NCBI GenBank assembly: GCA_913049915.1
Contig: CAJWZC010000020.1
Coordinates: 1 to 46,996, forward strand
Direction: 5' to 3'
Length of the DNA stretch: 46,996 nt
Source of the DNA: an uncultured Colwellia sp.
GTDB lineage: Bacteria > Pseudomonadota > Gammaproteobacteria > Enterobacterales > Alteromonadaceae
In this document: positions 5,888-40,811 of the stretch, piece after piece
Numbering within the stretch: position 1 is the first letter of the stretch
Layout: each line of letters begins with the position of its first letter
Translations under genes and position numbers: made by a program
Notes under the pieces: generated by a model
Databases searched by the model: none
Told to the model about the DNA's origin: nothing
What the model saw: the letters and a program-made list of their open reading frames with translations, nothing else

Positions 5888-6658
5888 TTACTTGAGCAGC
5901 GTTAACTGGCTAAAAACATCCGCGGTGATATAACCTAGATTTTTATCACCGTTTACCGCTTTTATATCAGTAGAACCGACAAAGTGTTCACGTTCTTTAC
6001 TGCCATCGTTATCGCAATAAGCTAGCATAAAGCCAAGGTTTTTCCCCTCAAATAACGTCACTGCCTGTGGGTTTTTCTTTTGCATAGTTGTAGTCAGTGA
6101 GAAGCTATCGTCATAAACCCGCACAGACACTTCCCAAATAACTTTATTGGGTGATTTTTCACTACGGCGCCAGACACTGGTTACATGGTCATTTAGTAAG
6201 ACAAAGTTATCTGAGCCATCGGCATTCTTCTCACCAATGTCTACGGCCTGATTATCAAGAGCTATATGATAAGCAAAAGCATTAAAGTTAAATTGATGAT
6301 TACCACCAGAGGCATCTTCATCTAGAAAAATTTCTAAACAGTCATCATCCCAATATAAATGACGTGGGTCGGCATGTTGATCGAATAAAATATCATCGGT
6401 AATTTCTACTAATAGATATAATTGCTGCTCATCCCACATTATTTTAAATTGCCCAGAAAAATCATCCGCGCTGGGTTGTGACCCTAGAATAAGCTTATCT
6501 ATTGGCTGCCATGAAGCTAACTGCCAGCTAGCCTCATTAGCTAATCCATCAATCAGAATTTTCTCTGGTGACTTTACCGCTTCGAGTGCAGATACATGAA
6601 TCGAGGCAGTGATTAATAATCCAGTGATTATTTTTAAATAATTAATATAGTTAGTCAT
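5888..6658 (-). CDS. Secreted carbohydrate-binding family 9 (CBM9) protein
   Basis: A 256-residue protein with an N-terminal signal peptide (LKIITGLLITASIHVSALEA). A single CBM9-type beta-sandwich follows: KILIDGLANEASWQLA, QFKIMWDEQQLYLLVEI, then the acidic DDCLEIFLDEDAS and NFNAFAYHI, and near the end GFMLAYCDNDGS. CBM9 domains bind the reducing ends of beta-glucans and xylans, or act as sugar-binding modules in esterases and hydrolases. No catalytic domain is attached. Its ATG at 6658 overlaps the end of the kinase gene by 8 bp, so it is translationally coupled. It is intact although the genes around it are broken. Confidence 0.75.
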   Translation of the reverse strand: MTNYINYLKIITGLLITASIHVSALEAVKSPEKILIDGLANEASWQLASWQPIDKLILGSQPSADDFSGQFKIMWDEQQLYLLVEITDDILFDQHADPRHLYWDDDCLEIFLDEDASGGNHQFNFNAFAYHIALDNQAVDIGEKNADGSDNFVLLNDHVTSVWRRSEKSPNKVIWEVSVRVYDDSFSLTTTMQKKNPQAVTLFEGKNLGFMLAYCDNDGSKEREHFVGSTDIKAVNGDKNLGYITADVFSQLTLLK

Positions 6659-7199
6659 GTTTATTGTTCCTTGTTATTTGCTTAGTTAGTTTATTTATGT
6701 CATCAATAACTAACGAAAAATCGCGATCTACCTTGATAATACTTACGTCTAACTCATTGAGCAAAGGTGGTTCCATCGCTTCAACTTGGCTATCCAGCAG
6801 AGCGTGTGAAAAAAAATGATTTGCTCGCTGAGTAATTCGCTTAGCAATAATATCCTTATTAGCCGTTAGATAGAAGAAGTGGCAATAAAATGGCAATTTT
6901 CTAAATAAATTTCGATGTGCCGACTTTAAGCCTGAGTAAGCAAGCACGACTGAATTACCCGGCTGAAAAATTAAAATTAAGTGGTCTGTAATACTTACTA
7001 ACCAAAGCGCTCGCATTTCATCGGTTAATGACTTATTTGCAGCCATATGCTTTTTGGCTTGCGCGCTGTGAAAATCATCCGCATCGATATAAATCAGTAA
7101 AAATTCATTAGCGAGTTGTTGCGCTAGGCTTGATTTACCCGTCCCGCTCACCCCTATAACAATAAATAAATTCGGCACGTTTTTCGCTCGATTAACCAT
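6651..7199 (-). CDS. gntK: Gluconokinase (GntK family)
   Basis: A 182-residue P-loop kinase of the thermoresistant gluconokinase family (E. coli GntK is 175). The P-loop GVSGTGKSS is at 16-24. The substrate region IDADDFHSAQAKKHMA (about 38-53) corresponds to the GDxxHPxxNxxKM motif, and SLTDEMRALW to PLxDxDRxPWL, with several departures. It should phosphorylate D-gluconate to 6-phosphogluconate. Upstream is a GH94 phosphorylase overlapping by 8 bp. Cellobionic acid phosphorylases of this family release glucose-1-phosphate and gluconate, so a coupled gluconokinase fits that pathway. Substrate is inferred; the divergent motif leaves room for another aldonate or sugar acid. Confidence 0.8.
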   Translation of the reverse strand: MVNRAKNVPNLFIVIGVSGTGKSSLAQQLANEFLLIYIDADDFHSAQAKKHMAANKSLTDEMRALWLVSITDHLILIFQPGNSVVLAYSGLKSAHRNLFRKLPFYCHFFYLTANKDIIAKRITQRANHFFSHALLDSQVEAMEPPLLNELDVSIIKVDRDFSLVIDDINKLTKQITRNNKHD

Positions 7200-9621
7200 G
7201 TCGCGGCACTCTCACCTGTAGTTGATAATGTTGTCCTGACTGTAAGTTAGTTAGTACATTGCCAGCGATGACTTTCTTATCAAGGGTTATTTCCATGACA
7301 ATAATATTGATGTCCTGCTTAATATAAAAATTAATAATTGCTCCTCTAAAAAGCCGCTGACCTGATAAATATTGTAACTTTGTTGGCATTTTCGGTGCTA
7401 TTTTCAAGCCACTAACACAGCATTTTAACCCGCACAGTTCTTCGACTAAACAACGATATAACCAAGACGTAGTACCAGTGTTAAATAAGTGACTAGAACG
7501 CCCCGCTTGTTTGGGTAACTGATAATAAGCACCACGATAATAATTAGGCACATAGATAGGTAACTGCCCAGTAATGTCAGCACTTTCAATAGATGGCAAC
7601 ATTTAATTGAGTAGTTCAAAAGCTAAGTTATTTTGCCCTACTTTATAAAGTGCATAAATATAAAATATGGCTGCGTGATTATAAACAGAGCCATTTTCAG
7701 ATACCCCTGGATGTTTTTGGGTAATACGGCCAATATCTTCCACCATACTGGTATAACTTGGCGCCAGCATCATCACGCCTTTAGGTGAAATTAATTGCCG
7801 AGAGATGGCCGCAATCATTTCAGTTTGTTGATACTCATTTGCCGCACCACTGAGCATGGCCCAACTTTGAGGGTTAAGAAATATTTTCCCTTCAGATTCA
7901 TTATCTGTACCAAAAACACGACCCTCATCAGTAATGCCACGGGCAAACCATTGACCATGCCATAAGTGCTTATTTACAGCCTTGTTAATCGCTTGAGCAA
8001 CAAAACGGTAGTCGTCATATTTTTGTAGAGAAATTGTAATACGGTATTCATCACAAAGATCACACCAAGTGGTTAACGCATAAGCTGTCGCTAAAGATAA
8101 CCAAGTAGAGACGCCTTTGCCCTGATAACCCACCATATTCATAGGGTCACACCAGTCACCTTGTTCAATAAAACTCAAACCTCTATAGTCAGTAGCATTA
8201 ATCAAATAATCTAATGCTAGCTCTATATGACAGGAAAACGATTTTTTATCTGCTGAATCGGCAAAAGCTATCATTTCAGTGAATAAGCTGACATCCGCGG
8301 TTTCATTCAAATAGACCGATAAACAAATAGGTAACCAAACACCATGGTCTGCATGGGGTATTTGATTAATATATTTAAGCTCTGCTTTCTCATACAACAA
8401 GACACCTTCTGGCATAGCACCATTAATAGTTTGCTGAGAAACTGCTAATATATACGCTTGACGGGTATTTTTAGGCTTGATAAAAGCCATACCCATATTA
8501 TCTTGAATATAGTTTCGCGTTTGCGGGTCGGTACTTAATCGGTTCACGTCACCATGATAAAACATCAGCCTTGGTAACCAATGATTAAATAAATCATCAA
8601 AGCCTTTATTTTCTTTACTATCACCACTGTTAATGGTTAAACAGGCTTTTCCTTGAGCAAGGTACTCTCCATAGGATTTTTTCGCCCGTTTACGTTCTTT
8701 ATGACCAAGATATTTGTCCTTGATCTCCATAATTTCAATATTATCTTTTGCTGGACCAAATAGAAATTGATAGCTTTTTCGCTCACTAGGCATTAACTGC
8801 TGTTGAAACTGCATAACAGCAACAGGCGTTTCATAACGGGCTTCAACATTACCTAATAACTTCGCCTGTAATGCACTGGGTTGATGCAACCCACCTTCGC
8901 CTTCAAAGACTTTTTGATTCGCATACCAGGCAGTAGGCTCTGTATCACTTATAAAGAAGGTTTTATCTTTTAACTCTTTGTTATTGAAGTAATCTACTAC
9001 TTTCTGATAAGGGGTGACAGAATCAGCAATAATGGCATTTAACGTTTCATCATAGCTTGCCGACTGATTCATCCATGACATATAACCAATAGAAAAGTAT
9101 GGGTAAACGCTAATGTTTTTTATTGTTTTCGTTAGATTACTCACAGAAAAAAACCAGCATTCAACTAAGTCGTCTTGCGTTAAATTAACGTTAATGGTTA
9201 TTTTTAGGCCACTATGCTCAATTTCCCAAGTAATATCATTATTACTTAACTCAAAAGAGAAGCTATCAAGTTTAACTCGCATAGGCTCATAAGGTAGAGA
9301 AATTATTTCACCACTATCTTCATCTTTAAGGTAAAAAAATCGTCCTGGGTGATGACTAAAATAACTGTGCTCTGGTTGAATAAAACTTTTAGCTTCCATG
9401 TTAGGCGCGTAAGAGTATTTAGCTGGCTCTGGTTGCATAAACTGTGAATTAACATAACCTCGACAGTTTACTTGCATGACCATGGCGCGATTCCATAAAA
9501 ATCCAGTCGCATTGGGTAATGTAGTTGGGCTTGTAAGAGTCACCTTACTAAAACTATCAAGCGCGCTATTAATATTAATCAAAGGCTTCTTTAAAGACTT
9601 ATTTAAAGGTAAGTTAGACAT
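7192..9621 (-). pseudogene. GH94 phosphorylase (probable cellobionic acid phosphorylase) split by one in-frame stop
   Basis: The sequence reads as one GH94 protein of about 810 residues, the usual length, but a TAA at 7603-7605 interrupts it in frame after LAFELLN. The next codon begins MLPSIE and continues with the GH94 C-terminus (VPNYYRGAYYQLPKQAGRS, FNTGTTSWLYR, GLKIAPKMP). The catalytic Asp lies in EQGDWCDPMN, followed by YQGKGVSTWLSLATAYAL. Pairing with gluconokinase favours 4-O-beta-D-glucosyl-D-gluconate (cellobionate) phosphorolysis over plain cellobiose. The ATG at 9621 is chosen because AAGGTG lies about six bases upstream; a GTG at 9630 is also open. It overlaps the transporter stop by 8 bp. 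If not a sequencing error, the protein lacks its last ~136 residues, including part of the sugar-binding barrel. Confidence 0.85.
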
Positions 9622-10988
9622 TAACCACACCTTTATTCACATCACCTGCATGCTGTTTTCCTTGTGTCGGTAATCCTTGTTGTGTTGATGTCTGCTCTAC
9701 TGATTCTTCTTGTAAAAGTAATTCATCTTGAATTTTTTTCAACTGTCGTTCATCTAGCGGATAAAAATAAATTAACGGTACGGTAATCGCTGCAAATATT
9801 GCTGGTATCAAAGTAATCAATAGTACGATTACTTCTTGAGATGATCCCGTTTGAACTTGATTAGCCACATAATCCAATGAGGCGAGCATCCAACCAATCA
9901 TAGCACCAGCCAAGGCACCACCAAGCTTTTGCGCAAATGCGGCAGCTGAAAAAATCATTGCTGTTGCCCGCCTCCCCGTTCGCCACTGTGAAAAATCGGC
10001 AGTATCTGCATACATAGAAAAAATCAAGGATGATTTTGGCCCCAATGCTAAACCAATCAGTATTTGTAAGACGAACATCAAGGTAATGTTGTCGTTTGGC
10101 ACAAAATAGAAAACGAGTGAAAGTGCAGCGACAATCGCCATCAAAATCATCAACAGTCGACGCTTATCTATAAACTTGGTTAACAGAGGTGTTAAGGCAG
10201 TACCAACAGCTAGTGCTATCATGTAGGCCATAGCAAAGCTGCCATTAAATCAGCACGTTCAACGTAATATTTAAAATAAAAAGTACCAGTAATAGCTCTT
10301 AATGAGATAGTCATCATGATAATAAAAAAAGAATCTTCCAAGGTGAGTTCTGGGTCAAATCTTTTAAATCCTGTAATACCAGTGTTTTTTTGCTGTGCAG
10401 GCGGAGAAATACGCCCTTTAGTTGATAAGAAGGTAACAACAAAAAGTATCGCTGCAACTAACCCATATACTAACATAGTGAACTGCTAGCCAAGTGCTTC
10501 ATTCCCCTGTCCCAAATAAGCTAACAACTCTGGTATCATATAAGCTACTAAGCTGTCCCCTAAAAAGGTACCAATAAAACGAAAGCTCGTTAGCGTCGTT
10601 CTTTGTTGGCTATCTCCCTTAACAACACCGAGTAAGGCACCATAAGGTACACTTATAAAGGTGTATGCCAGCATCATAAATATGTAGGTGCCGTGAGCCC
10701 AAATTAATTTATTACTGTCACTGACATCAGGTACAGTAAAGGTAAGTACTCCTGCAGCAATCAGAGGGATTATTCCACAAAGTAACTAAGGTCTAAACGT
10801 ACCAAAACGGGTATTCGTTCTATCAACAATTGCGCCCATTAACGGATCAGAAAAGGCATCAATAAGGCGTGTCACTAACATCATGGTACTAACCGCTACC
10901 GCTGGTAAAAATTTGAGGCTACATTACCACACGGATAACCGACTTTTTCACCTAAACTCAATTGATTTTTTTTAATATCTTTATTTAT
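9614..10988 (-). pseudogene. GPH-family sugar:cation symporter, broken by stops, a frameshift and a deletion
   Basis: Translating the minus strand gives the order of a glycoside-pentoside-hexuronide (GPH, MFS) transporter: QLSLGEKVGYPCGNVASN, a gap, MMLVTRLIDAFSDPLMGA, RTNTRFGTFRP, FMMLAYTFISVPYGALL, then the second half to the C-terminus. Breaks: TAG where family members have Trp in RPWLL (about 10786), TAG in ALG-stop-QFTM (about 10485, Trp expected), a frameshift near 10225-10235 between ADLMAA and AMAYMIALAVG, and loss of about 20 residues near 10917. The start is also ruined: an ATG at 11000 is followed by an in-frame TAG. It would have carried the oligosaccharide across the inner membrane for the adjacent phosphorylase. 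Confidence 0.9.
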
Positions 10989-11089: not shown

Positions 11090-11103
11090 TATAAGCGCTT
11101 ACA
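11090..11103. promoter_or_regulatory. LacI-family-type operator, site 1 (TATAAGCGCTTACA)
   Basis: A near-perfect palindrome around a central CG, of the kind bound by LacI-family sugar repressors. On the minus strand a TATAAT hexamer (11088-11093) overlaps it, about 90 bp upstream of the decayed GPH transporter, a suitable place to repress that operon. It differs by one base from site 2. No LacI-type regulator gene is in the window. Confidence 0.6.
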
Positions 11104-11299: not shown

Positions 11300-11313
11300 T
11301 GTAAGCGCTTACA
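11300..11313. promoter_or_regulatory. LacI-family-type operator, site 2 (TGTAAGCGCTTACA)
   Basis: A perfect 14-bp palindrome with the AAGCGCTT core, located just upstream of the -35 region of the TonB-dependent receptor gene. Its centre is 210 bp from that of site 1. Sites of this type regulate saccharide genes in Alteromonadales; binding here is inferred. Confidence 0.65.
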
Positions 11314-11432: not shown

Positions 11433-14400
11433 GTGATTCAGAAAAAATTTACTAAAACAAAACTAGCAACTAGCCTATCATTAATTTTAGGGGTTACTTC
11501 TTTACCTGCTTTTTCAGCTGAAGAAGCAAGTGTAGAAGAAAGCGTCGAAATAATTACAGTTACTGGTATGCGCTCAAGCATTAAAGAATCAACAAGACTT
11601 AAACGTGATGCTTCTGGTGTTGTTGATGCTATATCAGCAGAAGATATTGGTAAGTTTCCTGATACTAACTTAGCCGAATCGCTACAACGTATCACTGGTG
11701 TGTCAATTGATCGTACTAACGGTGAAGGTAGCCGAGTAACGGTTCGTGGTTTTGGTCCACAATATAATATGGTTACGTTAAATGGCCGTTCTATGCCAGC
11801 TTCTGCTATCGGCACTGGTGGTGGCGATACACGTGCATTTGATTTCCAAAACTTAGCTTCTGATGCCGTTTCTTCGGTTGAAGTTTTTAAAACTGGCCGT
11901 GCAGATATCGCTACTGGTGGTATTGGTGCTTCAATTAACATCAATACAGCTAAGCCATTAGATAACCCTGGCTTCCAAGCTACCGTTGGTGCTAAAGCTA
12001 TGATGGACACATCGGTAAGAGATGGTGTTCGTGATTATGGTGACCAAGTTACACCTGAATTTTCTGGCTTATTCAGTTGGACTGATGACAACGAAATATT
12101 TGGTGCTTCTGTAAGTGCTAGTTTCTCTGAGCGTCACAGTAGTTCAACAGGCGCAGGTCTTAATGGTTGGACACGTCGCAACTATGTAGATGTAGAAGGT
12201 CTTGGTCCTCGTGAAGTTGACGCAGCATCTGATGACCGTGGTGACTATCCAGCATCAGTAGTTACTGGCCGTCCTGTAGAAGGCGAGGCATATTTCCTTC
12301 CAACTAACCTTGCTTACAAAATAAAAGATACTCTACGTGAACGTACTAATGCACAGTTAACATTACAGTTTCGTCCTATAGAAACCTTAACAGCAACCTT
12401 AGATTACACTTATTCAGAGCTTGACAGCCAAGGTTACGCTACTGAACTTTCAGGCTGGTATGATAGTGATTTAGGTGTAGCTAACATGACTGATGGTTTA
12501 AACCCTACGTCAGGACACTATGTTGAATACCGTAATGCAAACTCACCACGTGACGTTGCTACTAAGCAAATGCACGAAAACTACAACACAGAAAACAATT
12601 CAATTGGTTTAAATCTTGAATGGGAAGCTAATGACAACCTTACTTTTAGGTTTGATGCTCATAATTCAGAATCAAAAACTGATCCAACTGAAGCTTATGG
12701 TCACAACTTAGTTGTAGGCATTGGTTCAAACACGCATAAAAAAATTGGTGCTGAATATACTACAAGTGGTCTACCCAACATGATCACCGAGTTTGATGAT
12801 TGTGATGACCGTATATCTACAGAAGCAGGTGGCCAAAATTCTGGCATGAACTGTAATGGTGTATTGGATATACAAGATCTTGGTAGTACCATGATGCAAA
12901 CCAATTATGATAATCAAGCAAATGAAATCTCAGAATTCCATCTTAGTGGTTCATATGAATTTGAAGAAAGTTCCATCGACTTTGGTATAGAGTCTCGTGA
13001 ATTAAAAAATACAACAGTCCAATCAAATACTGGCAACCAAACCATGGGTGGTTGGAGTGCAGCTAACGCAGGTGAATTTGAAGGTCTTGGTTTCCTTGAT
13101 AAGATTAACCTTAATGATTCGTTAGATGATTATAAAGTTCGTGATACAACAGGTACTGTTGGTGGAAATGAAAGCCAAACTTTAGTCGCTTTCCGTGGCG
13201 ACGCTAAACAAATTGGTTTATGGGCCGATGAAAAATATGGTGATCAAATTAGCATGATTCGTAACCCTAACGAAGCTGTTAATCGTTCTATAACAGAAGA
13301 CGTTATATCCGCTTATGTACAATATAATGCAGATTTTGAATTAGCTGACATGCCAGTTCAGATAACCGTTGGTTTACGTTATGAAGAAACTAAAAGTACC
13401 TCTAGCGCTTTTTCAGCCGTACCGTCAGAAGTGCAATGGGATAGTGATAACGATATGCAAGTTATCCAGGGTGACTTTGCTGGCGCACAAGCTTACGGTA
13501 GCTCAAATACTTATGACCACCTACTACCAAACTTTGATTTCAGCATAGACCCAATAGAAAACGTGAAAGCACGTTTTTCTTACAGTAAAACTATTGCTCG
13601 TCCAAGTTATAACTCATTAAGTGCACAAGCAACAGCAAATGGGGGTCCTGGTATTCCAACAATACTTGATAGCCAAGCTTATGGTGACGCAAGTCAAAAC
13701 AACCCTAATTTAGTACCACTTGAATCTGATAACATCGATTTATCAGTAGAATGGTATTTCGATGACACTAGCTATGTTTCAGCGGGTTATTATAGTAAAG
13801 ATGTTAAAAACTTTATTGGCTCTTCACCATTGATTAGTGACTTTTTTGGTTTACGTGACGTAACTAACGGTCCACGTGCAATACAAGCACTTGCTGACTT
13901 AGAGTCTCAAGGTATAAAAGTTGATGCTACATCTTTATTTGCAATGGTTGCAGCTAATGAAGTGGGTTTACCTATAACTGACCGTTCACAAGAACAATGG
14001 GCTCTAGATTATGATCTTCATGCTAATAGTGACGATCCTTTAATGGAGTTTCGTTATGATGCACCTGTGAACACTGAATCAGCTAAAATTGACGGTTGGG
14101 AATTTGCATTACAACACTTCGTTGGTGATACTGGTTTCGGTTTCCAAGCTAACTACACCATAGTAAACGGTGATATTGGTTTTGACTTAGCTTCAGATGG
14201 CGCTCAATTTGCTTTAGAGGGCTTAAGTGATACTGCCAACCTTGTATTGATGTATGAAAAATATGATTTTTCTGCTCGTATTGCATACAACTGGCGTGAT
14301 AAGTTCTTAGCTTCAGCTAACCGTGGTGCAGGCGAACCATTGTTTACAGAAGAGTATAGTCAAATTGATATCAGCGCTAGCTACGCAATAACTGAAGCGT

Positions 14401-14531
14401 TCTCAGTATCATTTGCAGGTATTAACATTACCGGTGAAGATATTCGTCAATCAGGTCGTAATGAAAACCAATTTATCTTCGGTGAAGAAGGTGATGCTCG
14501 TTATGAGATCGGTGCTCGTTATAATTTCTAA
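11433..14531 (+). CDS. TonB-dependent receptor, Xanthomonas/Caulobacter type
   Basis: A 1032-residue outer-membrane receptor. Signal peptide to about residue 28 (SLPAFSAEE), then a TonB-box-like segment (VEIITVTGMRSSIKES). The plug domain has DAISAEDIGKFPDTNLAESL, RITGVSID and VTVRGFGPQYNMVTLNGR. A 22-strand barrel follows and ends in the aromatic YEIGARYNF. Many members of this subclass import oligosaccharides, powered by TonB-ExbBD. The start is GTG at 11433 with AAGGA six bases upstream. LacI-type palindromes and a divergent beta-glucan-type operon suggest a saccharide substrate; the downstream SapC-halogenase genes are a typical neighbourhood of such receptors. The barrel is uninterrupted. 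Confidence 0.92.
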   Translation: MIQKKFTKTKLATSLSLILGVTSLPAFSAEEASVEESVEIITVTGMRSSIKESTRLKRDASGVVDAISAEDIGKFPDTNLAESLQRITGVSIDRTNGEGSRVTVRGFGPQYNMVTLNGRSMPASAIGTGGGDTRAFDFQNLASDAVSSVEVFKTGRADIATGGIGASININTAKPLDNPGFQATVGAKAMMDTSVRDGVRDYGDQVTPEFSGLFSWTDDNEIFGASVSASFSERHSSSTGAGLNGWTRRNYVDVEGLGPREVDAASDDRGDYPASVVTGRPVEGEAYFLPTNLAYKIKDTLRERTNAQLTLQFRPIETLTATLDYTYSELDSQGYATELSGWYDSDLGVANMTDGLNPTSGHYVEYRNANSPRDVATKQMHENYNTENNSIGLNLEWEANDNLTFRFDAHNSESKTDPTEAYGHNLVVGIGSNTHKKIGAEYTTSGLPNMITEFDDCDDRISTEAGGQNSGMNCNGVLDIQDLGSTMMQTNYDNQANEISEFHLSGSYEFEESSIDFGIESRELKNTTVQSNTGNQTMGGWSAANAGEFEGLGFLDKINLNDSLDDYKVRDTTGTVGGNESQTLVAFRGDAKQIGLWADEKYGDQISMIRNPNEAVNRSITEDVISAYVQYNADFELADMPVQITVGLRYEETKSTSSAFSAVPSEVQWDSDNDMQVIQGDFAGAQAYGSSNTYDHLLPNFDFSIDPIENVKARFSYSKTIARPSYNSLSAQATANGGPGIPTILDSQAYGDASQNNPNLVPLESDNIDLSVEWYFDDTSYVSAGYYSKDVKNFIGSSPLISDFFGLRDVTNGPRAIQALADLESQGIKVDATSLFAMVAANEVGLPITDRSQEQWALDYDLHANSDDPLMEFRYDAPVNTESAKIDGWEFALQHFVGDTGFGFQANYTIVNGDIGFDLASDGAQFALEGLSDTANLVLMYEKYDFSARIAYNWRDKFLASANRGAGEPLFTEEYSQIDISASYAITEAFSVSFAGINITGEDIRQSGRNENQFIFGEEGDARYEIGARYNF

Positions 14532-14560
14532 GGTTTAACTGAGTCGTAATAAAACAATAT

Positions 14561-14596
14561 AAACCGTTGTTCTTTTTCCTAAGTTCAGCGGTTTTT
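14561..14596 (+). terminator. Probable terminator between the receptor gene and sapC
   Basis: AAACCGTTG (14561-14569) pairs with CAGCGGTTT (14586-14594), one G-U pair included, followed by a short T run. It lies 30 bp after the receptor stop and may limit read-through into the downstream genes. A second small hairpin, AAAAGC-ttc-GCTTTT (14706-14720), sits just upstream of the sapC ribosome binding site. Confidence 0.5.
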
Positions 14597-14737
14597 AATT
14601 TAGTTAACGTTATTCGCAATTTTTAATTGCATTATTTTTTTGTTGAAATAAATTTAATAGTTTATCTAGGTTATTTAGGTAAGAAACAACAACAAGTCAC
14701 AGCTGAAAAGCTTCGCTTTTATGATCAGGATACAGCA

Positions 14738-15460
14738 ATGTCAAACCATATTCAGTTAAATAACCAAACACATAAAACATTAAAGGCATCAATAAAATTT
14801 AGTAATGAATTTGGCGATAATGTTAGTAGTGCATTAACTTTTCCAACCGAATTTATGAATATACAAAAAGAGTATCCTATTTTATTTAGTAAAAACCCTG
14901 ATACAGGAGAGTTTCAATCTGTCGTATTATTTGGTCTTAAAAAGGATGAAAATCTATATTTACAAAAAGGTGAATGGAACGCTAATTATATTCCTGCCGT
15001 CATGGCTAAAGGCCCTTTTCTAATTGGGAAAGAAGATCAAGAGATAGAAGGAGAAACGGTCAATAGCGCTATTATTGTTGTTAATATGGACAGCCCACGT
15101 ATAGATAATATTAATGGCGAAGCTGTATTTTTAGATAATGGCATTAGCAGCCCTTATTTAGACAAAATAACGCATGCATTGTCGATTATTGATCAAGGTA
15201 CTGCAATGAGTAAAGCGATGTTTGATGCCTTCAATGAATATGATCTTATAGAGCCAATAACGCTAGACATTGAGTTAAATAACGGCGAGAAATGGAATAT
15301 TTCAGGTAATTATACTATTCATGCAGAAAAATTAGCACAACTTGACGGTCTAGCTTTGGATAAACTAAACAAAGCTGGCTTTTTATCTTTAGCATTTTCG
15401 GTTACAGCATCATTAAGTAACGTTAAGAAATTAGTCGATATAAAAAACGCGAGTGTATAA
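14738..15460 (+). CDS. SapC family protein
   Basis: A 240-residue protein of the SapC family (named after an S-layer-associated gene; biochemical role unknown). Visible features: EYPILFSKNPDTGEFQSVVL, GEWNANYIPAVMAKGPFLIG, and the C-terminal GNYTIHAEKLAQLDGLALD. No signal peptide is evident. The start at 14738 is preferred over an in-frame ATG 111 bp upstream, because AGGA lies about seven bases before it and the extra N-terminus does not look like the family. SapC genes commonly sit beside TonB-dependent receptors and tryptophan halogenase-like genes in Caulobacter, Xanthomonas and Alteromonadales, as here. A protein-partner or substrate-presenting role is speculation. Confidence 0.85.
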   Translation: MSNHIQLNNQTHKTLKASIKFSNEFGDNVSSALTFPTEFMNIQKEYPILFSKNPDTGEFQSVVLFGLKKDENLYLQKGEWNANYIPAVMAKGPFLIGKEDQEIEGETVNSAIIVVNMDSPRIDNINGEAVFLDNGISSPYLDKITHALSIIDQGTAMSKAMFDAFNEYDLIEPITLDIELNNGEKWNISGNYTIHAEKLAQLDGLALDKLNKAGFLSLAFSVTASLSNVKKLVDIKNASV

Positions 15461-15509
15461 CTATTATTAGGATAAAACTTCCGTTTTAAAAATACAGGTA
15501 ACTTAAATT

Positions 15510-16190
15510 ATGAGTACTTTACAAGACTTTATTAAATGGAATGAAGAAAAGTGGGAAGATAAAAACCAAGAAATGTATACTGGGGAAAATGAAGATAACA
15601 TCTGGCCCTGGTTTAGTAAAAAATTAGATCTAGATGTTATTAATTTTATTGAAGAAAATAATATTGAGTCCGCTAAAATCCTTGATCTTGGTACCTGTAG
15701 TGGTGCTCAAGCAATTGCTTTAGCTAACATGGGTTTTGATGTTGTTGGTACAGATATTTCACATACAGCGCTAAATAAAGCAATTAAATTGGCCAAAGAA
15801 CAGTCAACTAAAACTAAGCCTAACTTTATAATTGATGACATACTCGATACTAAACTTGCAGCAAATCAATTTGATTTAATATTAGACCGAGGTTGCTTTC
15901 ATTCAATTTGCTGTATCAGTACCAAAAAGTATATTGCTAACTTAACAAAGATACTCAAACCGGGCGGTAAAATAATTCTTAAAACGATGAGCTTGAAAGA
16001 AAATAGATTTTCTGGATTTGACACCTTTGCAGGGCAAAAAATTCCGATGCCTTATCGTTTCGATGAAGACATTATTCGCAATGTTTTTAATGACCATTTT
16101 ATAATAGATAACATCGAAGATAGTTACTTTTATAGTTCAGTGGTTACACCTCCCGCACAAGCAATGTTAACTATTTTATCAAAAAAATAA
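15510..16190 (+). CDS. Class I SAM-dependent methyltransferase
   Basis: A 226-residue Rossmann-fold methyltransferase. Motif I is ILDLGTCSGAQAIALA (about 57-71), the acidic end of strand 2 is VVGTDIS (78-84), strand 4 is LILDRGCFHSI, and ILKPGGKIILKTM follows. The LDRGCFH stretch is shared with thiopurine/TehB-like small-molecule methyltransferases. The substrate is unknown. It lies 49 bp after sapC and 116 bp before the first halogenase, same strand, so it probably belongs to the same unit. A methyltransferase is not a routine member of receptor-SapC-halogenase loci as I know them, which makes it a lead to the modified compound. Confidence 0.85.
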   Translation: MSTLQDFIKWNEEKWEDKNQEMYTGENEDNIWPWFSKKLDLDVINFIEENNIESAKILDLGTCSGAQAIALANMGFDVVGTDISHTALNKAIKLAKEQSTKTKPNFIIDDILDTKLAANQFDLILDRGCFHSICCISTKKYIANLTKILKPGGKIILKTMSLKENRFSGFDTFAGQKIPMPYRFDEDIIRNVFNDHFIIDNIEDSYFYSSVVTPPAQAMLTILSKK

Positions 16191-16306
16191 AACTTAAGTG
16201 TATTTATCATACTAATTAAATGTACTTAATTTATTCCATAAGAACTATTTTTATATTAATACCTTACCTGTAAATTTTCTATTATTTAATAATTAATGAG
16301 TCAAAA

Positions 16307-17797
16307 ATGAAAAATGAAAAAATACAAAAAATTGTTATTGCTGGAGGGGGTACTGCTGGTTGGATGACCGCAGCATCATTATCAAAATTATTAGGTAAAG
16401 GTTTCGATATAACAATAGTCGAATCTGACGAAATTGGTACAGTCGGTGTTGGTGAAGCGGCAATCCCTACGCTTGTTACTTTTCATCGTTTACTGGCTAT
16501 TGATGAACAAGCATTTATGCGAGCCACGCATGCGACGTTCAAGTTAGGCATTAACTTTGAGAATTGGAAACAGAAAAATGAAAATTATATGCATGGATTC
16601 GGCAATGTTGGCAAAGCATGTTGGGCAGGTGAATTTCAACATTTTTGGTTACATAGTTTAAGAAAAAATGTCGATGTACCTTATGATAAGTACTGCTATG
16701 AAATACAAGCAGCAAAAGCGGGTAAGTTTGCAAAGAGCCAAGAAGCTCCACTTAATTATGCTTATCACCTCGATGCCACTTTATATGGTCGTTTTTTACG
16801 AAATTTTAGTGAAGAACTAGGTGTAAAACGTATCGAAGGAAAAATAGTTTCTGTTATTAAAAATGAAGATAATGGTCACATATCTTCATTAATGTTAGAT
16901 TCAGGAAAGCAAATAGAAGGACAACTATTCATTGATTGTACCGGTTTTAACGGCTTATTAATTGAAAAGTCATTACATACTGGCTACGAAGATTGGTCGC
17001 ATTGGCTACCTTGTGACAGTGCCATTGCAGTGCAAACAAAGCCAACTGACTCAGCACTTCCTTATACACGTTCAATAGCCCAAGACTCTGGCTGGCAGTG
17101 GCGTATACCACTACAAAACAGAGTCGGTAATGGCTTAGTTTATTGTAGTAATTATCTTACTGATGAAAATGCAAAATCTTTGCTGTTAAAAAATATTGAT
17201 GGAGAAACAATTAATGAACCTCGGGTGATTAAATATCGTACCGGACGTCGTCGCAAAGGTTGGAATAAAAACTGTATTGCTATCGGTTTATCAAGCGGCT
17301 TCGTTGAACCTTTAGAATCTACCAGTCTTCATCTTATTATGTCAGGTATTCTCCGTTTAATAAAATTATTCCCATTTGCGGGTATTAATCAATCTGCTAT
17401 TGATGAATACAATCAACAATTTAATGAAGAAATTGAGAGTATCCGAGACTTTATCATCATGCATTACCATGTGACCGAAAGGGATGACAGTCCGTTTTGG
17501 CGATACTGTAAAAATATGGACGTGCCCCCGTCGTTAAAGCACCGCATTAATCTCTTTGAAGAAACTGCTCGCCTTTCAGTTAATGATGGTGAACTTTTTC
17601 ATCCTGATTCTTGGTCTCAGGTAATGTTTGGCCAAGGTATTATACCTAAACAATATCATCAAATTGCGAATGTTATGGGTAAAGACGAATTTACCAATTT
17701 TTTGCGTGGCCTCAGAGAACCGATCAAGAAAAAAGTTGAACAATTACCTAGCCATCAAGAATTTATTGATTATTACTGCAAGGCAGAAAAAACCTAA
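16307..17797 (+). CDS. Flavin-dependent tryptophan halogenase family protein (copy 1)
   Basis: A 496-residue FAD-dependent halogenase of the tryptophan halogenase family (PrnA about 538). FAD-binding GGGTAGW is at 13-19 and GVGEAAIPT at 47-55. The Lys that reacts with hypohalous acid is at 79 in THATFKLGINFENW. The halogenase signature WxWxIP is complete (W263, W265, I267, P268), and GFVEPLESTS carries the second catalytic Glu (E337). The enzyme should halogenate an electron-rich, probably indole-like, substrate using FADH2, O2 and halide. A separate flavin reductase is needed and is not in the window. Family members from receptor-SapC loci in other bacteria act on free indoles in vitro; the natural substrate is unknown. 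Confidence 0.9.
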   Translation: MKNEKIQKIVIAGGGTAGWMTAASLSKLLGKGFDITIVESDEIGTVGVGEAAIPTLVTFHRLLAIDEQAFMRATHATFKLGINFENWKQKNENYMHGFGNVGKACWAGEFQHFWLHSLRKNVDVPYDKYCYEIQAAKAGKFAKSQEAPLNYAYHLDATLYGRFLRNFSEELGVKRIEGKIVSVIKNEDNGHISSLMLDSGKQIEGQLFIDCTGFNGLLIEKSLHTGYEDWSHWLPCDSAIAVQTKPTDSALPYTRSIAQDSGWQWRIPLQNRVGNGLVYCSNYLTDENAKSLLLKNIDGETINEPRVIKYRTGRRRKGWNKNCIAIGLSSGFVEPLESTSLHLIMSGILRLIKLFPFAGINQSAIDEYNQQFNEEIESIRDFIIMHYHVTERDDSPFWRYCKNMDVPPSLKHRINLFEETARLSVNDGELFHPDSWSQVMFGQGIIPKQYHQIANVMGKDEFTNFLRGLREPIKKKVEQLPSHQEFIDYYCKAEKT

Positions 17798-17898
17798 TCT
17801 GTTGTAAGGTAAACATAAGATTATTTTATGTTATAACATTTTTATACACTTACTGTTTATCACCTTTAATGGTGCTTAGATGAAAAAGAGAACAAGCA

Positions 17899-19458
17899 AT
17901 GAGTAAAGTAACAAAACGAGTAGTCATCGTGGGTGGCGGATCTGCTGGTTGGATCACTGCGGGAGTTATTGCCGCCGAACATAAGGCAAATTCACCTTCC
18001 GGCATTCAGGTAATCCTAATAGAGTCACCCGATGTACAAACGGTAGGTGTTGGTGAAGGTACCTGGCCAACCATGCGTAAAACACTAAAAAAAATTGGTA
18101 TCTCTGAAAATGATTTGTTTAAGGAGTGTGACGCCTCCTTTAAACAAGGTGCAAAGTTCGCCAAATGGGTAACTGGCGCGGAAGATGACTTTTATTATCA
18201 TCCTTTTGTTTTACCACATGGTTATCTTGAAACTGACTTAGTTATCCCGTGGCAAAAAACACAGGCTAAAATCCCTTTTGCTGATGTTGTTTCCTTTCAA
18301 GGAAAGATTTGTGAACAAGGCTTAGCACCGAAACAAATAACAACGCCTGAATACGCTGCGGTTGCGAATTATGCTTACCATTTAGATGCTGTAAAACTAG
18401 GGCAGTTTTTACGAAAACATTGCATAGAAAAATTAGGTGTTCAACACATAATAGATCATGTAACTCAAGTGAACTCTGCCCACGATGGCGACATCGCGTC
18501 AATTTTAACCAATGAACATGGCAGTGTTGAAGGTGATCTATTTATCGATTGCACCGGAAAAGCTTCATTGTTATTGGGACAGCATTATCAAATACCTTTT
18601 ATTTGTAAAAAAGGCATATTATTTAACGATAGCGCCTTAGCTGTTCATGTGCCCTACCCTGACGAAGATAGCCCTATCGCTCCTCACACAAATTCAACCG
18701 CACAAAGTGCGGGTTGGATATGGGATATAGGTTTACCCACTCGACGTGGTGTAGGTTATACCTATTCAAGTAAACACATTTCAGATGAAGATGCTGAAGT
18801 TGAATTAAGAAAATACATAGAAGACTCTACCAGTAAAAATATCGTTGATTCGCTAATGGTTAGAAAAATCACGATAAAACCAGGGCATAGAGAAAAATTC
18901 TGGCATAAAAACTGTGTGGCTGTTGGTATAGCTGCTGGATTTTTAGAGCCTTTAGAAGCCTCAGCACTGGTCTTAATTGAACTCGCTGCAGAGAAAATCA
19001 GCAATGATCTACCTGCAACAAGAGATGTAATGGATATTGTTGCTAAACGTTATAATAAACAGTTTTTGTACCGCTGGAATCGTATTGTTGAATTTTTAAA
19101 ACTACATTACATTTTAACCAAACGAACTGACAGTGCCTATTGGATTGACAACTGTAAAGAGGAAACCATTCCTGACAGTTTATTAGAATTATTAGTATTA
19201 TGGCGGCATCACCCACCTTGCCCTGATGATTTTATTCATATAAACGAAGTGTTTCCTTCTGCTAGTTGGCAATACGTACTTTATGGAATGGGTTTTGAAA
19301 CTCAAGCAAGAAGCACAACGCGTAAGTCAGTAAATACTGAAGCAGCACAAAGATTATTTTCTGAGAATAAAGCGATCACAAACAAGTATTTATCCGCTTT
19401 ACCCGTTAATAGAGAGCTTATTGATAAAATTAAAAAATACGGTATGAAAAAAGTATAA
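17899..19458 (+). CDS. Flavin-dependent tryptophan halogenase family protein (copy 2)
   Basis: A 519-residue paralogue of the preceding gene, 101 bp downstream. GGGSAGW is at 12-18 and GVGEGTWPT at 50-58; the catalytic Lys is at 82 in CDASFKQGAKFAKW; GFLEPLEASALVLIEL carries the catalytic Glu. The signature motif reads WIWDIGLPT, so W-x-W-x-I is kept but the following Pro is replaced by Gly-Leu. An internal insertion near residues 93-130 (including FYYHPFVLPHGYL) is absent from copy 1. The two proteins are clearly diverged rather than a recent duplication, so they probably act on different positions or substrates. Expression with copy 1 is likely. An AT-rich hairpin (17812-17832) lies between them. 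Confidence 0.88.
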   Translation: MSKVTKRVVIVGGGSAGWITAGVIAAEHKANSPSGIQVILIESPDVQTVGVGEGTWPTMRKTLKKIGISENDLFKECDASFKQGAKFAKWVTGAEDDFYYHPFVLPHGYLETDLVIPWQKTQAKIPFADVVSFQGKICEQGLAPKQITTPEYAAVANYAYHLDAVKLGQFLRKHCIEKLGVQHIIDHVTQVNSAHDGDIASILTNEHGSVEGDLFIDCTGKASLLLGQHYQIPFICKKGILFNDSALAVHVPYPDEDSPIAPHTNSTAQSAGWIWDIGLPTRRGVGYTYSSKHISDEDAEVELRKYIEDSTSKNIVDSLMVRKITIKPGHREKFWHKNCVAVGIAAGFLEPLEASALVLIELAAEKISNDLPATRDVMDIVAKRYNKQFLYRWNRIVEFLKLHYILTKRTDSAYWIDNCKEETIPDSLLELLVLWRHHPPCPDDFIHINEVFPSASWQYVLYGMGFETQARSTTRKSVNTEAAQRLFSENKAITNKYLSALPVNRELIDKIKKYGMKKV

Positions 19459-19987
19459 CCATTGTAAGCAAGTATTCAAAACGTACTAATAACTAGGGCC
19501 TATTTATCTTTTAGGGTTAAAGTTTATTCGATTTTAAGCAGACTTAATCGCTTAGGAAGCTTTGTATCATAGTTATTTGATTATAAAAGCGTGCAACAGG
19601 AATTTGTACTTTCCTCAATGCGTATTTATTGTTAATTTTATCAAAACTGCATATGTCATAATCAGACCAACAATGATTTGAAGTGATGATAGTTATTAAT
19701 AAAGGAAGTCTTGGTATTGAACTTACTTTATAATCCGGAGGTTATATAGGTACAAAGTATTATGGGTTTATCTTAATAATTTTAATAACACTCGATTTTG
19801 GCTGGTGTAGATATATTATTAATACTTAACCTTTTTAGTCAATTTGGTATTGTAAATTTTCTCCTCCGTGCCTACATACCCAATTGGAAGTATTGTTCTT
19901 TATATTCCTTTAGAAAAATTAAAGATGATTAAAGGTTTTATTATTTAAGGGTAGTCCCCCCTAAATATTTATTGATTGGAGTAATAT
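19459..19987. other. Non-coding 529-bp gap with no recognised content
   Basis: No ORF, remnant or convincing hairpin terminator was recognised on either strand. The end of the gap carries the DUF6445 ribosome binding site TTGGAG (about 19976-19981). The AT-rich stretch before it could hold a promoter, so the DUF6445 gene may be transcribed separately from the halogenases. Confidence 0.5.
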
Positions 19988-20695
19988 ATGAGTAGTTCTT
20001 TTCTGTCGTTAAGTCAGAATGCCAATATATCTAGTGTAAAGTTTGGGGTAGAGAGTCAACCATTACTCAAAGTTGATTCTTATCTTCAAAATCCACAAGT
20101 GTTGATTGATTACGCGATTAATAAAAATGATTTTACTGTTGCGGATAATTATTACCCAGGTATACGTATGCCCTTGCCTCTTTCCTATTTAAAGGCGTTA
20201 GTACTTAATTTAGGCCCTAATATTGAAGCGACCTTTGGTGTCGATTTGAAACAGATAAAAACAGCTACAGCTGCTTTTTCTATTATTACCACACCGTTAG
20301 ATAAACTTGGCTTTGTTCATACCATTCCTCACTTCGATGGATTAGGAAAAAATAAATTAGCAATATTACACTACCTATGTGATATGCCAGATACAGGCAC
20401 CTGTTTTTATCACCATAAAGCCTTAGCTTATGATTATGTCGATGATAATCGTGCGGTTTGGTATTTTAATTATCTTGAAGAACAGTTTAAAAATAAAAGT
20501 AAGGTATATAATTCATATATATGTGAAGAGTCACCTGAATTTGAAAAAATAGCCGCTTATGAGTGTATATTTAATAGATTACTTATCTACAAAGCATCTA
20601 GTTTACATTCAGGACATATTACGCCAGATTATAATTTTGATCCAAACCCTAAAACGGGTCGCTTAACTATTTCTAGTTTTATTGAATTTAATTAA
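19988..20695 (+). CDS. DUF6445 family protein, probable Fe(II)/2-oxoglutarate oxygenase fold
   Basis: A 235-residue protein of the DUF6445 type that recurs next to tryptophan halogenase-like and SapC genes. A jelly-roll iron-site pattern is visible: H115-x-D117 in HTIPHFDGLG, a distal His (H207 or H210) in YKASSLHSGH, and Arg225 in KTGRLTISSF placed like the Arg that holds the 2-oxoglutarate carboxylate. This suggests a hydroxylase or related oxidation, but no activity is known to me. The ATG at 19988 has a good upstream GGAG. It is separated from halogenase copy 2 by 529 bp but keeps the same strand and the usual company. Confidence 0.75.
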   Translation: MSSSFLSLSQNANISSVKFGVESQPLLKVDSYLQNPQVLIDYAINKNDFTVADNYYPGIRMPLPLSYLKALVLNLGPNIEATFGVDLKQIKTATAAFSIITTPLDKLGFVHTIPHFDGLGKNKLAILHYLCDMPDTGTCFYHHKALAYDYVDDNRAVWYFNYLEEQFKNKSKVYNSYICEESPEFEKIAAYECIFNRLLIYKASSLHSGHITPDYNFDPNPKTGRLTISSFIEFN

Positions 20696-20742: not shown

Positions 20743-21297
20743 TTGATAATAGCGGTTAAATCGCATAAATTTAGTAAAGAGCTCTATTTCTATGATCTCA
20801 TTTCCAACTTCCTTATCTCACTATGTGACTGTCCTGTTATCTTTGATGAACATACATATATTTATCAAGATGCTAAGCAAGTATTAAGCTTTCCAGGTAC
20901 TTATCCTAAAACAAAGCACCTATCGCCATTTCAATTGAGAAAGCAAGTGCTGAGAGGTGATGTAAACAAAAGAAAACATATCGTTTCATGTTGCATGATG
21001 CTCGCCAATACGGCTTACGAATCACTAAAAAAATACAATGATGGCTCCGAGATCTTTCAATTATTCCGCCACATTCGAAATACCTCTTCCCATTTAAATT
21101 TTTTTCAATTCAATCACAAAGAGCCTGCTCACCCAGCACAATAGCGAGGTTCGATTATTGAGCATCAACAAAAGGATGATAAAAATGTGCTTTTTGCTAA
21201 GCCTTGTTTTGGCCACTTTATAGGTGTGGCTGATTTACTTAATTTATTGATGGATATCGAGAGAAAAATAATAGCACAAATTGAAAAATCTGAATGA
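20743..21297 (+). pseudogene. HEPN-like protein gene with an internal amber codon
   Basis: A frame starting TTG at 20743 runs for 133 codons to a TAG at 21142-21144, then continues in the same frame to a TGA at 21295-21297 with protein-like sequence (KPCFGHFIGVADLLNLLMDI). Around the stop it reads EPAHPAQ-stop-RGSIIE; a Trp (TGG) would restore a WRG motif. The stretch FRHIRNTSSHLNFF (RxxxN...H type) is typical of HEPN-domain proteins, which are often RNases or toxins. I place it there only tentatively. The start is uncertain. As it stands the product would be truncated by about 50 residues. Confidence 0.6.
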
Positions 21298-38972: not shown

Positions 38973-40211
38973 TTAAATTTTCTTAAAGATTAATGAGCCG
39001 TTTGTGCCGCCAAAACCAAATGAATTACAAAGTACATATTCCAATTCAACATCACGTGCTGCACCTGCAATATAATCTAGATCACAACCTACATCAGGGT
39101 TATCTAAATTTATTGTCGGTGGAACTTGGTTATTCATTAGTGCTTGGATGCTGAAAATCGCTTCAACAGCGCCTGCAGCGCCTAACAAGTGCCCGGTCAT
39201 TGACTTAGTAGAACCCATCATTACATTCTTTGCACCCGCACCAAATACAGTTTTAACTGCATTAGTTTCTGCCATATCACCCGCTTGTGTAGAAGTACCA
39301 TGGGCATTGATGTAACCAATCCTACTAATATCTACTTTGGCATCATTAATGGCATTTTGCATAGCACGAGCGGCACCATCACCATTTTCAGGGGGTGAAG
39401 TCATATGATAAGCATCGCCACTCATACCAAAGCCGACAAGCTCAGCATAAATTTTTGCGCCACGGGCTTTAGCATGTTCATATTCTTCAACAACGATAAC
39501 ACCAGCGCCATCTCCAAGAACAAAACCATCACGATCTTTGTCCCAAGGACGAGATGCGGCTTCAGGATCGTCATTACGACGAGATAAAGCGCGTGCAGCA
39601 CCAAAACCGCCCAAACCTAATGGAGTAGAAGCTTTTTCAGCACCACCAGCAACAACAGCGTCTGCATCACCATAAGCAATCATGCGTGCAGCATGTCCAA
39701 TATTATGAACACCACTAGTACACGCTGTAGTAATCGCAATATTAGGACCTTGCAGACCAAACATGATTGATAAGTGACCAGCAATCATATTAATAATGGT
39801 TGATGGCACAAAGAATGGCGATAACTTACGTGGGTTACTTTCAGCTTTTATCAGTTTATTATGGTTTTGCTCAATTAAACCTAAACCACCAATGCCAGAG
39901 CCGATAGCAACACCAATACGGGGTGCATTTTGCTCAGTAACTTCAAGACCAGAGTCTTTAATAGCTTGGACACCCGCTGCAATACCATATTGAATAAAAA
40001 GATCCATTTTTTTGGCTTCTTTTCGTTCCATATAATTTTCGGCATTAAAGTTTTTAACTAAGCCTGCAAATTTAGTAGGATAATCTGTGATATCAAAATG
40101 CTCAATAGTAACTATACCACTTTTACCAAGCAGCAAGTTTTGCCATGTTTCTTCTGCGGTGTTGGCTAATGGGCTAACCATACCAATGCCAGTAACTACT
40201 ACACGTCTCAT
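38973..40211 (-). CDS. fabF: Beta-ketoacyl-ACP synthase II
   Basis: A 412-residue thiolase-fold condensing enzyme. The nucleophile Cys is in [15 protein letters not shown], and the two catalytic His are in [12 protein letters not shown] and [14 protein letters not shown]. The C-terminal [12 protein letters not shown] loop is present. It elongates acyl-ACP with malonyl-ACP and in the cold adjusts the unsaturated fatty acid content. The ATG has GGAGG about nine bases upstream. It is separated from acpP by about 200 bp with a palindrome and a terminator-like hairpin. Confidence 0.97.
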
Positions 40212-40270
40212 AACAGAGCGGCCTCCGAAAAATTAAATATACTATCAAATTTTATACGTATTAGTATAAG

Positions 40271-40284
40271 AAAGTGATCACTTT
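40271..40284. promoter_or_regulatory. Perfect 14-bp palindrome upstream of fabF (AAAGTGATCACTTT)
   Basis: It sits about 60 bp upstream of the fabF start. A looser inverted repeat (TCCAATA 40291-40297, TATTGGA 40310-40316) lies next to it. An operator is possible; it does not match a regulator site I can name. A fabF promoter probably lies in this gap. Confidence 0.4.
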
Positions 40285-40337
40285 TTTATGTCCAATAGTA
40301 TTAATATATTATTGGATAATAACGTCATATTAAAGAT

Positions 40338-40377
40338 AAAAAAAAAGCGGCCACTTGTAATTAAGTATACCGCTTTT
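40338..40377 (-). terminator. Terminator-like hairpin between acpP and fabF
   Basis: On the minus strand AAAAGCGG (40377-40370) pairs with CCGCTTTT (40350-40343) around a 19-nt loop, followed by T's to 40338. It lies about 40 bp after the acpP stop. Partial termination here would keep acpP transcripts far more abundant than fabF, fitting the high demand for ACP. Confidence 0.7.
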
Positions 40378-40417
40378 ATTATTTTACTAAGCCCGATAAT
40401 ATCGAACTTATTAACAA

Positions 40418-40651
40418 TTACTGGTTAGCAGTAACGTAATCAATTGCTGCTTGAACTGTTGTAATTTTTTCAGCTTCTTCGTCAGGAATTTCAGTATCAA
40501 ATTCTTCTTCTAACGCCATAACTAATTCAACAGTGTCTAATGAGTCAGCACCTAAGTCATCAACAAATGATGAATCAATTTTCACTTCTGCTTCACTAAC
40601 ACCTAGCTGTTCAACTGTGATTTTCTTTACGCGTTCTTCGATATTACTCAT
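40418..40651 (-). CDS. acpP: Acyl carrier protein
   Basis: A 77-residue acidic four-helix carrier. The phosphopantetheine Ser is in [20 protein letters not shown]. The start at 40651 ([10 protein letters not shown]) is chosen because AAGGA lies nine bases upstream and this is the standard ACP N-terminus; the frame is open for 25 codons further up but that stretch is not ACP-like. ACP carries the growing chain in fatty acid synthesis. It has its own candidate promoter and a downstream hairpin, so it can be expressed above the rest of the fab genes. Confidence 0.98.
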
Positions 40652-40693
40652 TTTATTTCCTTTACTGAAAGTGCAGTTTTTCAAATTGTGTGT

Positions 40694-40722: not shown

Positions 40723-40742
40723 GCATCTAATTCACTTTTTTA

Positions 40743-40759: not shown

Positions 40760-40811
40760 GAACTATTGAAAAATATTATTTAAAAACAATGTAAGCTTTA
40801 AAAATAAAGGC

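Follow-up and report, generated by a model that had tools for sequence, protein, structure and literature searches.

PrnA and RebH are free-tryptophan (Trp) enzymes of natural-product clusters, and the conserved Lys and Glu of halogenases of this kind have catalytic roles. A related flavin enzyme, QhpG, is a monooxygenase whose target is a Trp within a protein that is still in the cytoplasm and is exported afterwards. Here we analyze six plus-strand genes at 11433-20695 of a 46,996-nucleotide stretch of DNA from an uncultured Colwellia sp. (contig CAJWZC010000020.1, assembly GCA_913049915.1; this whole stretch is called the window below). Two flavin halogenases, halA and halB, stand there together with a TonB-dependent receptor, a SapC protein, an S-adenosylmethionine (SAM)-dependent methyltransferase and a DUF6445 protein (Table 1). 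According to our analysis, the coupling of such halogenases to sugar receptors is real and widespread, and the locus is a variant of carbohydrate-uptake loci that we did not find described as a system. We put at roughly 0.47 the probability that the enzymes of the set act in the cytoplasm on the receptor encoded with them, altering Trp and further side chains prior to its export.

The solved structure closest to halA, 6y1w, is one which we take to be Xcc4156 of Xanthomonas; halA aligns with it over the whole length, with the same catalytic motifs and, by eye, an identity of roughly one half, and 6frl (BrvH) follows at 436 bits. The structure closest to halB, 2pyx, is listed merely as “Tryptophan halogenase.” PrnA and RebH share superfamily PF04820 and its motifs with halA and halB, but the similarity is lower (about 300 bits for halA and about 200–220 bits for halB). 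Their natural-product context was not found at this locus: no polyketide synthase (PKS), nonribosomal peptide synthetase (NRPS) or other secondary-metabolite gene was detected among the 19 distinct window proteins scanned, the remaining open reading frames (ORFs) of the window lying outside the scan. This agrees with the initial annotation, made from the letters of the DNA, which had seen neither a PKS nor a peptide synthetase. A ketoacyl synthase and an acyltransferase at 38973-42595 resemble ordinary fatty-acid genes. On the basis of the 19 proteins scanned, a natural-product cluster was rejected.

In vitro, BrvH brominates free indole, and not Trp, at low activity, and its active site might admit larger substrates (PMC5945002); the Xanthomonas halogenases act on indole derivatives and not on free Trp (PMC7336383). 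In the available text of both papers, small indoles are the substrates tested, no protein substrate is proposed, and the natural substrates are stated to be unknown, as the initial annotation had said. The gene brvH adjoins a second halogenase gene (PMC5945002), as is the case with halA and halB. Neither main text contains the word “TonB,” and that on BrvH also lacks “SapC.” The behavior of these relatives as described there, with activity on indoles but not on free Trp and a site open to larger substrates, fits modification of the receptor.

The described carbohydrate utilization (CUT) loci (PMC1790865) and sugar loci of Shewanella (PMC2996990), as far as the text available goes, likewise combine a TonB receptor and sugar enzymes with a transporter of the inner membrane and with control by the sugar. 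The word halogenase is absent from the main texts of both papers, whereas the receptor of the present locus is coupled to a modification set. No title or abstract opening was found that describes these halogenases as forming a system with SapC or a TonB receptor; the search covered neither subscription papers nor preprints.

Catalytic residues and partner enzymes

All six genes are present and open, and the coordinates, Pfam and NCBIfam scores and active-site residues agree with the order and the intact motifs that had been read earlier. The two window halogenases match Trp_halogenase (PF04820) at 618 and 383 bits. The flavin adenine dinucleotide (FAD) motif (GxGxxG), the catalytic Lys and Glu and the WxWxI motif are intact in both, the last reading WIWDIGLP in halB instead of WxWxIP. 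Each of the two catalytic residues is kept in 287 of the 294 aligned halogenase sequences, halA and halB included, on the tree of which the subfamilies were defined.

Both halogenases are weakly similar to QhpG, at 30–34 bits, far below the family cut-off of 240, and halA is weakly similar to LodB. The similarity to QhpG was counted in favor of receptor modification, and together with that to LodB it also speaks for a related reading, in which the substrate is again the receptor, or else a partner protein, but is not halogenated, the enzymes working as QhpG-like Trp monooxygenases alongside 2-oxoglutarate oxygenases. The partner enzyme classes do have protein-modifying members, and the linkage evidence presented below is the same as for receptor halogenation. 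Nevertheless, the halogenase-typical Lys, Glu and WxWxI are kept in nearly all of the 294 sequences, and the relatives are active brominases in vitro in the available accounts, which makes this reading improbable.

No evident N-terminal signal sequence was seen by eye on the four enzymes, or on SapC when read from its ATG (its ORF opens with a TTG that probably lies upstream of the true start, and the ATG at 14738 agrees with relatives). Because of this, and because the halogenases start almost directly at the FAD motif, the enzymes should be cytoplasmic, whereas the receptor is exported. The AlphaFold model of the receptor (mean predicted local distance difference test score, pLDDT, 83.5) has the TonB-receptor fold according to Foldseek.

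In DUF6445, residues H115, D117, H207 and R225 are invariant in 19 aligned sequences and form the pattern of 2-oxoglutarate/Fe(II) oxygenases, which points to a putative oxygenase-like protein; a paralogue also matches 2OG-FeII_Oxy_3, slightly below the cut-off. For SapC, a structure was predicted with confidence (pLDDT 95.6), and neither a match of the model in the PDB at E <= 0.001 nor a significant sequence match to solved structures was found; SapC may therefore have an undescribed fold, and an attempt to assign its function through the fold gave no result. A fourth SapC gene of the same genome (L018:9673-10458) has no receptor or halogenase within the 20 kb fetched around it.

Linkage and co-inheritance with the receptor

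The same genome holds nine Trp_halogenase genes in five loci, four of which adjoin a receptor of the TIGR01782 type, while the fifth begins at a contig end. The neighbors at these loci are GH20, NagA, NagK and LacI (N-acetylglucosamine, GlcNAc); GH3 and LacI with a carbohydrate-binding protein; another GH3; and alpha-amylase-type enzymes (NagA, NagK, LacI and the second amylase-type gene were named by eye). One of the loci carries Cupin_8. The sugar genes vary from locus to locus; the receptor and the halogenase are constant.

In the best 80 of 188 confirmed loci found with halB (L041-L120), a receptor occurs in 78, in 61 of them within 500 bp, together with SapC (64), halA (49), Cupin_8 (34), DUF6445 (16) and a homologue of the rare methyltransferase in a single locus (L103). 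Of the 46 halogenases in 11 related genomes, 33 have a TIGR01782 receptor (E <= 1e-60) within 6 kb; for 8 of the other 13, a contig start is found within 2.2 kb. The link is not general to receptors of this type, because 33 of the 55 found in these genomes have no halogenase on their contig. Of 299 Pseudomonadota genomes, 45 hold a halA-type halogenase (E <= 1e-100). The window-type receptor (E <= 1e-130) was detected in 30 genomes, each of them halogenase-positive, and in none of the 254 halogenase-negative ones. We also chose by hand 80 regions around halA-type matches (L161-L240), taken from 38 of the 44 further positive genomes, and 74 of these regions contain a receptor gene. Within the family of the window, 246 genomes were sampled; 200 have a halA-type halogenase (E <= 1e-140), among them 167 of the 175 that are receptor-positive. 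Caulobacter vibrioides, used as a control, has members of all three families TIGR01782, PF07277 and PF04820. Since loci were drawn by halB, by halA or for lack of a halogenase (L121-L143 were selected for its absence), the class frequencies are not natural frequencies.

The linkage thus recurs in the class of the window and in other classes of its phylum, and by the counts of 78 of 80 and 33 of 46 it is more than chance; the initial annotation had proposed a neighborhood survey for SapC, DUF6445 and halogenase. That the genes are chance neighbors or decaying remnants, as the broken GH94 and transporter genes next to them might suggest, is almost certainly wrong: the neighborhood counts refute it, and all six genes are open and conserved.

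Co-inheritance was assessed on a tree of the receptors from which the three Trp regions discussed below had been left out, by comparing the observed state changes of each gene with the shuffled mean (137 rows). halA changed once against 42.8 expected from shuffling, SapC 9 times against 45.9 and halB 11 times against 46.0. Among accessory genes, the values were 12 against 38.7 for Cupin_8 and 7 against 17.3 for DUF6445. On the sugar side we obtained 4 against 8.8 (CBM9-like), 13 against 27.4 (MFS2), 3 against 5.9 (GH20), 7 against 12.7 (GH94), 20 against 26.7 (GH3), 21 against 27.4 (LacI), 7 against 8.8 (gntK) and 12 against 12.7 (second MFS). The observed/shuffled ratio is therefore 0.02 for halA, 0.20–0.40 for SapC, halB, Cupin_8 and DUF6445, and 0.45–0.95 for the sugar side. 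These low ratios tie halA, and less strictly SapC and halB, to the receptor lineage; halA follows it more closely than the catabolic genes do. In the 191-row receptor tree halA changes twice. Sampling by halA, by halB or by absence inflates the contrasts, and alone it cannot make halA follow the tree. Rows near contig edges were dropped, which left 24 of 27 unlinked receptors in the 122-receptor column comparison, 191 of 197 rows for the tree contrasts, 137 for the change counts and 154 for the descent-controlled scan. No clean loss of halA inside its receptor clade was found in the 246 family genomes, and the receptors of the 8 of 175 receptor-positive genomes without a halA match fall outside the halA clade.

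These patterns bear on what the halogenases act upon. A small molecule would suit the LacI-like, sugar-type promoter element of the set; it could be an aromatic compound that is attached to the glycan or enters with it, or else a signal or defence compound that diffuses and is produced in the presence of the sugar. In vitro, according to the parts of the papers available, free indole or its derivatives are brominated by relatives. However, superfamily enzymes occur at GlcNAc, starch-type and glucan-type loci, catabolic genes track the receptor less closely than do halA, SapC and halB, and no biosynthetic genes were found among the 19 window proteins scanned. In addition, the indole activity of BrvH is low, and its authors, in the text available, doubt that indole is the natural substrate (PMC5945002). 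We consider a small-molecule substrate unlikely; even if it is the true one, the coupling of halA to the receptor lineage, and not to the sugar, strongly constrains the search for it. The initial annotation had favored an outer-membrane-derived molecule that is taken up and halogenated. Its view of a non-random set of intact enzymes without PKS or NRPS in the 19 scanned proteins holds, but this substrate is not supported, as the loci serve carbohydrate uptake, superfamily halogenases stand beside receptors for different sugars in one genome, and halA tracks the receptor lineage more closely than the catabolic genes do. The receptor itself, which the initial annotation had not put forward, is the better candidate for the target.

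Tryptophan residues of the receptor

Three Trp residues of the receptor, Trp246, Trp342 and Trp541, follow strands rising from very short turns in the model secondary structure and are situated in or at long loops, presumably on the extracellular side. Trp246 is nearly invariant in 52 halogenase-linked receptors, and it is also common without a halogenase (15 of 28, and 11 of 11 in another set).

Across 122 receptors, Trp541 is the column that best separates loci with halA and halB (50) from those with halB and no halA (39), with weighted frequencies of 1.00 and 0.14. It is present in 50 of 50 receptors beside halA and in 3 of 39 beside halB-type enzymes without halA. In a second set, for which its presence was predicted before fetching, it was found in 35 of 35 receptors beside true halA and in 39 of 39 at loci with SapC/Cupin_8 and a halA-type enzyme. 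With both sets joined, Trp541 is found in 85 of 85 halA-linked receptors. Where halA is absent, it occurs in 1 of 30 receptors linked to the two main halB clades, in 4 of 40 once every halB-type clade is counted, and in 4 of 28 that have no halogenase. The motif forms a single column in the 122-row alignment and after addition of the second set; in the joint alignment of 197 receptors it was split over two columns, which were merged after the split had been seen. Since halA arose about once on the receptor tree, the association of Trp541 with halA amounts to about one event.

Different Trp motifs, e.g., AWGYP and YNWG, are seen in receptors that neighbor other halogenase subfamilies. Two such motifs were tried as group-specific regular expressions and rejected: W[GY][YF] matched 20 of 24 receptors of group II, yet 14 of 33 unlinked ones, and a YNWG-like pattern matched 15 of 16 of group III, yet 9 of 33 unlinked ones. 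Trp342 was likewise rejected as a presence/absence mark of halB, being retained in receptors without a halogenase.

The surroundings of Trp342 were compared in a receptor subfamily that occurs with and without the set. Eleven receptors (L249-L259), from the eight halA-less family genomes and three other receptors without a neighboring halogenase, have no halogenase, SapC or Cupin_8 nearby, and 5 of the 11 genomes lack any Trp_halogenase at E <= 1e-30. Together with L131 and L133, they were set against nine related halB-linked receptors. The same large neighbor gene is found at 6 of 9 linked and 12 of 13 unlinked receptors, while halB is found at 9 of 9 and 0 of 13. All six scanned members of the cluster of this neighbor are GH16, and a GH16-like start motif was found by pattern at 17 of the 18 receptors with such a neighbor. 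Thus, sugar alone does not explain the set, because the set spans loci for different sugars and receptors with the same GH16 neighbor occur with and without it. The equivalent of Trp342 is kept in both groups; its flanks typically read F-G-V-W-F-N with the set and W-G-I-W-N-E without it. Of 957 columns, the two that discriminate best are positions +1 and -3 of this invariant Trp, and no segment of the protein scores higher than the one containing them (permutation p 0.009, with L257, which has no neighboring halogenase, grouped as linked because it is nested among linked receptors). The genome of L257 has three halogenases elsewhere. Such a change of flanks would be expected of an enzyme recognition site or a pocket adapted to an altered Trp, and equally of a subtle change in ligand grip.

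If the receptor is the substrate, it would be acted on while newly made and still unfolded in the cytoplasm. The two halogenases, which would depend on flavin, O2 and a halide (probably bromide), would modify specific Trp residues that end up in extracellular loops; the candidate sites are Trp541 for halA and Trp342 for the set with halB, SapC and Cupin_8. DUF6445 (Cupin_8 in sister loci) may hydroxylate further side chains and the methyltransferase may methylate others, with SapC presenting the substrate or linking the enzymes. The altered loops could change the grip on the ligand, or they could block phages and bacteriocins that use the receptor. As a wider and more tentative proposal, it is possible that outer-membrane receptors are the natural substrates of these widespread “tryptophan halogenases” in general: each subfamily would be matched to one receptor lineage and would place a halogen on a particular extracellular Trp before export, with SapC as a helper and with oxygenases and methyltransferases adding further marks.

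Several observations weigh against modification of the receptor. Genes of one operon are co-inherited anyway, and the presence of any halogenase changes 8 times against 16.4 (ratio 0.49), no better than CBM9, MFS2, GH20 and GH94 (0.45–0.55). No receptor was detected at 2 of the 80 halB loci, one of which lies on a short contig. The association of Trp541 with halA represents one contrast in the descent-controlled scan and two in the 191-row tree. That scan of all receptor columns (154 rows), with any halogenase, halB, SapC, Cupin_8, DUF6445 and halA as traits, gave no column above the maximum of 60 permutations, and we grade such scans as negative or underpowered. Trp342 is unchanged in about 14 of 15 independent pairs differing in halB, and it is present in 11 of 11 receptors without halogenase neighbors and in 19 of 21 with halA alone. 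At the +1 site, L257, when kept as unlinked, is the sole exception (9 of 9 against 1 of 13). An enrichment of the “WG” pair in linked receptors was not found (p 0.13). On co-variation of a receptor residue with an enzyme, the subfamily comparison gives p 0.009, the descent-controlled scan no column, and Trp541 one or two contrasts.

Some of these points would agree with Trp541, Trp342 and their flanks being plain ligand-binding loops set by receptor subtype, with the halogenase set serving another envelope component, such as the TonB complex or lipopolysaccharide. Trp residues of sugar-binding proteins commonly stack on sugars, Trp342 is kept without a halogenase, and the descent-controlled scans are negative. 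On the other hand, receptors with the same GH16 neighbor occur with and without the set and differ in the flanks of the kept Trp, and halA follows the receptor almost perfectly; we regard such an arrangement as quite improbable.

The receptor-halogenation reading is unproven but specific. The analysis shows the gene linkage, the catalytic residues, the inheritance together with the receptor and the residue patterns, and from these we infer a protein substrate, its sites, halogenation as such, the part played by SapC and the benefit. If the neighboring receptor is indeed the substrate, this would be a new kind of protein modification and a dedicated, operon-encoded protein-halogenation system in bacteria, which would tune sugar uptake or hide the receptor from phages. 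In marine bacteria, it would add an unrecognized layer of control to the uptake of sugars through receptors and to the entry of phages, and it would answer the question of the purpose of a widespread halogenase family.

Sugar-uptake context of the locus

The features of the locus are collected in Table 1.

Table 1. Features of the receptor–halogenase locus and its surroundings (window coordinates)
Feature	Position	Strand	Remarks
TonB-dependent receptor, TonB-Xanth-Caul type (TIGR01782)	11433..14531	+	643.8 bits; curated cut-off 310
Codon of receptor Trp246	12168..12170	+	Loop, presumably extracellular
Codon of receptor Trp342	12456..12458	+	Presumed extracellular end of barrel strand
Codon of receptor Trp541	13053..13055	+	Long loop, presumably extracellular
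SapC (PF07277)	14738..15460	+	214.5 bits
SAM-dependent methyltransferase, rare accessory	15510..16190	+	Pfam/NCBIfam search
halA, Xcc4156-like flavin halogenase (K79, E337, WQWRI)	16307..17797	+	6y1w best, 600 bits
halB, 2pyx-like flavin halogenase (K82, E353, WIWDI)	17899..19458	+	2pyx best, 589 bits
DUF6445, HxD...H...R pattern	19988..20695	+	206 bits
LacI-family-type palindrome TGTAAGCGCTTACA, exact	11300..11313	+	About 120 bp upstream of receptor start
Second LacI-like palindrome, 1 mismatch	11090..11103	+	Between receptor and divergent transporter remnant
GntK/IdnK-type gluconokinase	6651..7199	-	TIGR01313, 127.6 bits; cut-off 113.75
GH94 phosphorylase, probably cellobionic-acid type by its L087 relative	7192..9630	-	In-frame stop 7603-7605
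MFS_2 sugar transporter remnant	9617..10923	-	Stops 10486-10488, 10786-10788; frame change ~10222-10249

By its gene content, the window locus is a sugar-uptake locus with a putative LacI-type operator adjoining. It has the receptor, glycoside enzyme, inner-membrane transporter and regulator site of a carbohydrate utilization locus, with GH94 and the transporter broken. The LacI-type pattern with up to two mismatches (<=2) occurs four times in the window against 0.24 expected, and in a relaxed form it recurs directly upstream of the receptor in relatives, e.g., L087 and L042.

GH94 is broken in the window and open in the relatives L087 and L080. The best match of the open GH94 of L087 is 4zle (1048 bits), whose entry reads “putative b-glycan phosphorylase” and which we take to be a cellobionic acid phosphorylase. 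A phosphorylase of this type together with a gluconokinase suggests a cellobionate pathway, which seems to be decaying beside the intact receptor locus. The sugar of the window locus is probably a beta-glucoside or a cello-oligosaccharide.

A 133-aa ORF without a Pfam match is located just 3' of DUF6445, at 20743-21144 on the plus strand. The GlcNAc-type loci L123, L145, L148 and L149 of related genomes and L017 differ in their accessories, with either Cupin_8 alone (L123) or one or two halogenases and SapC, to which DUF6445 may be added; thus, even where the sugar stays the same, the accessories behave as a modular set. Beside the halogenase-free receptors L125, L128, L130 and L136, some neighbors are sulfatase- or fucosidase-like, judged by eye from their first residues only, and these look like loci for sulfated algal polysaccharides.

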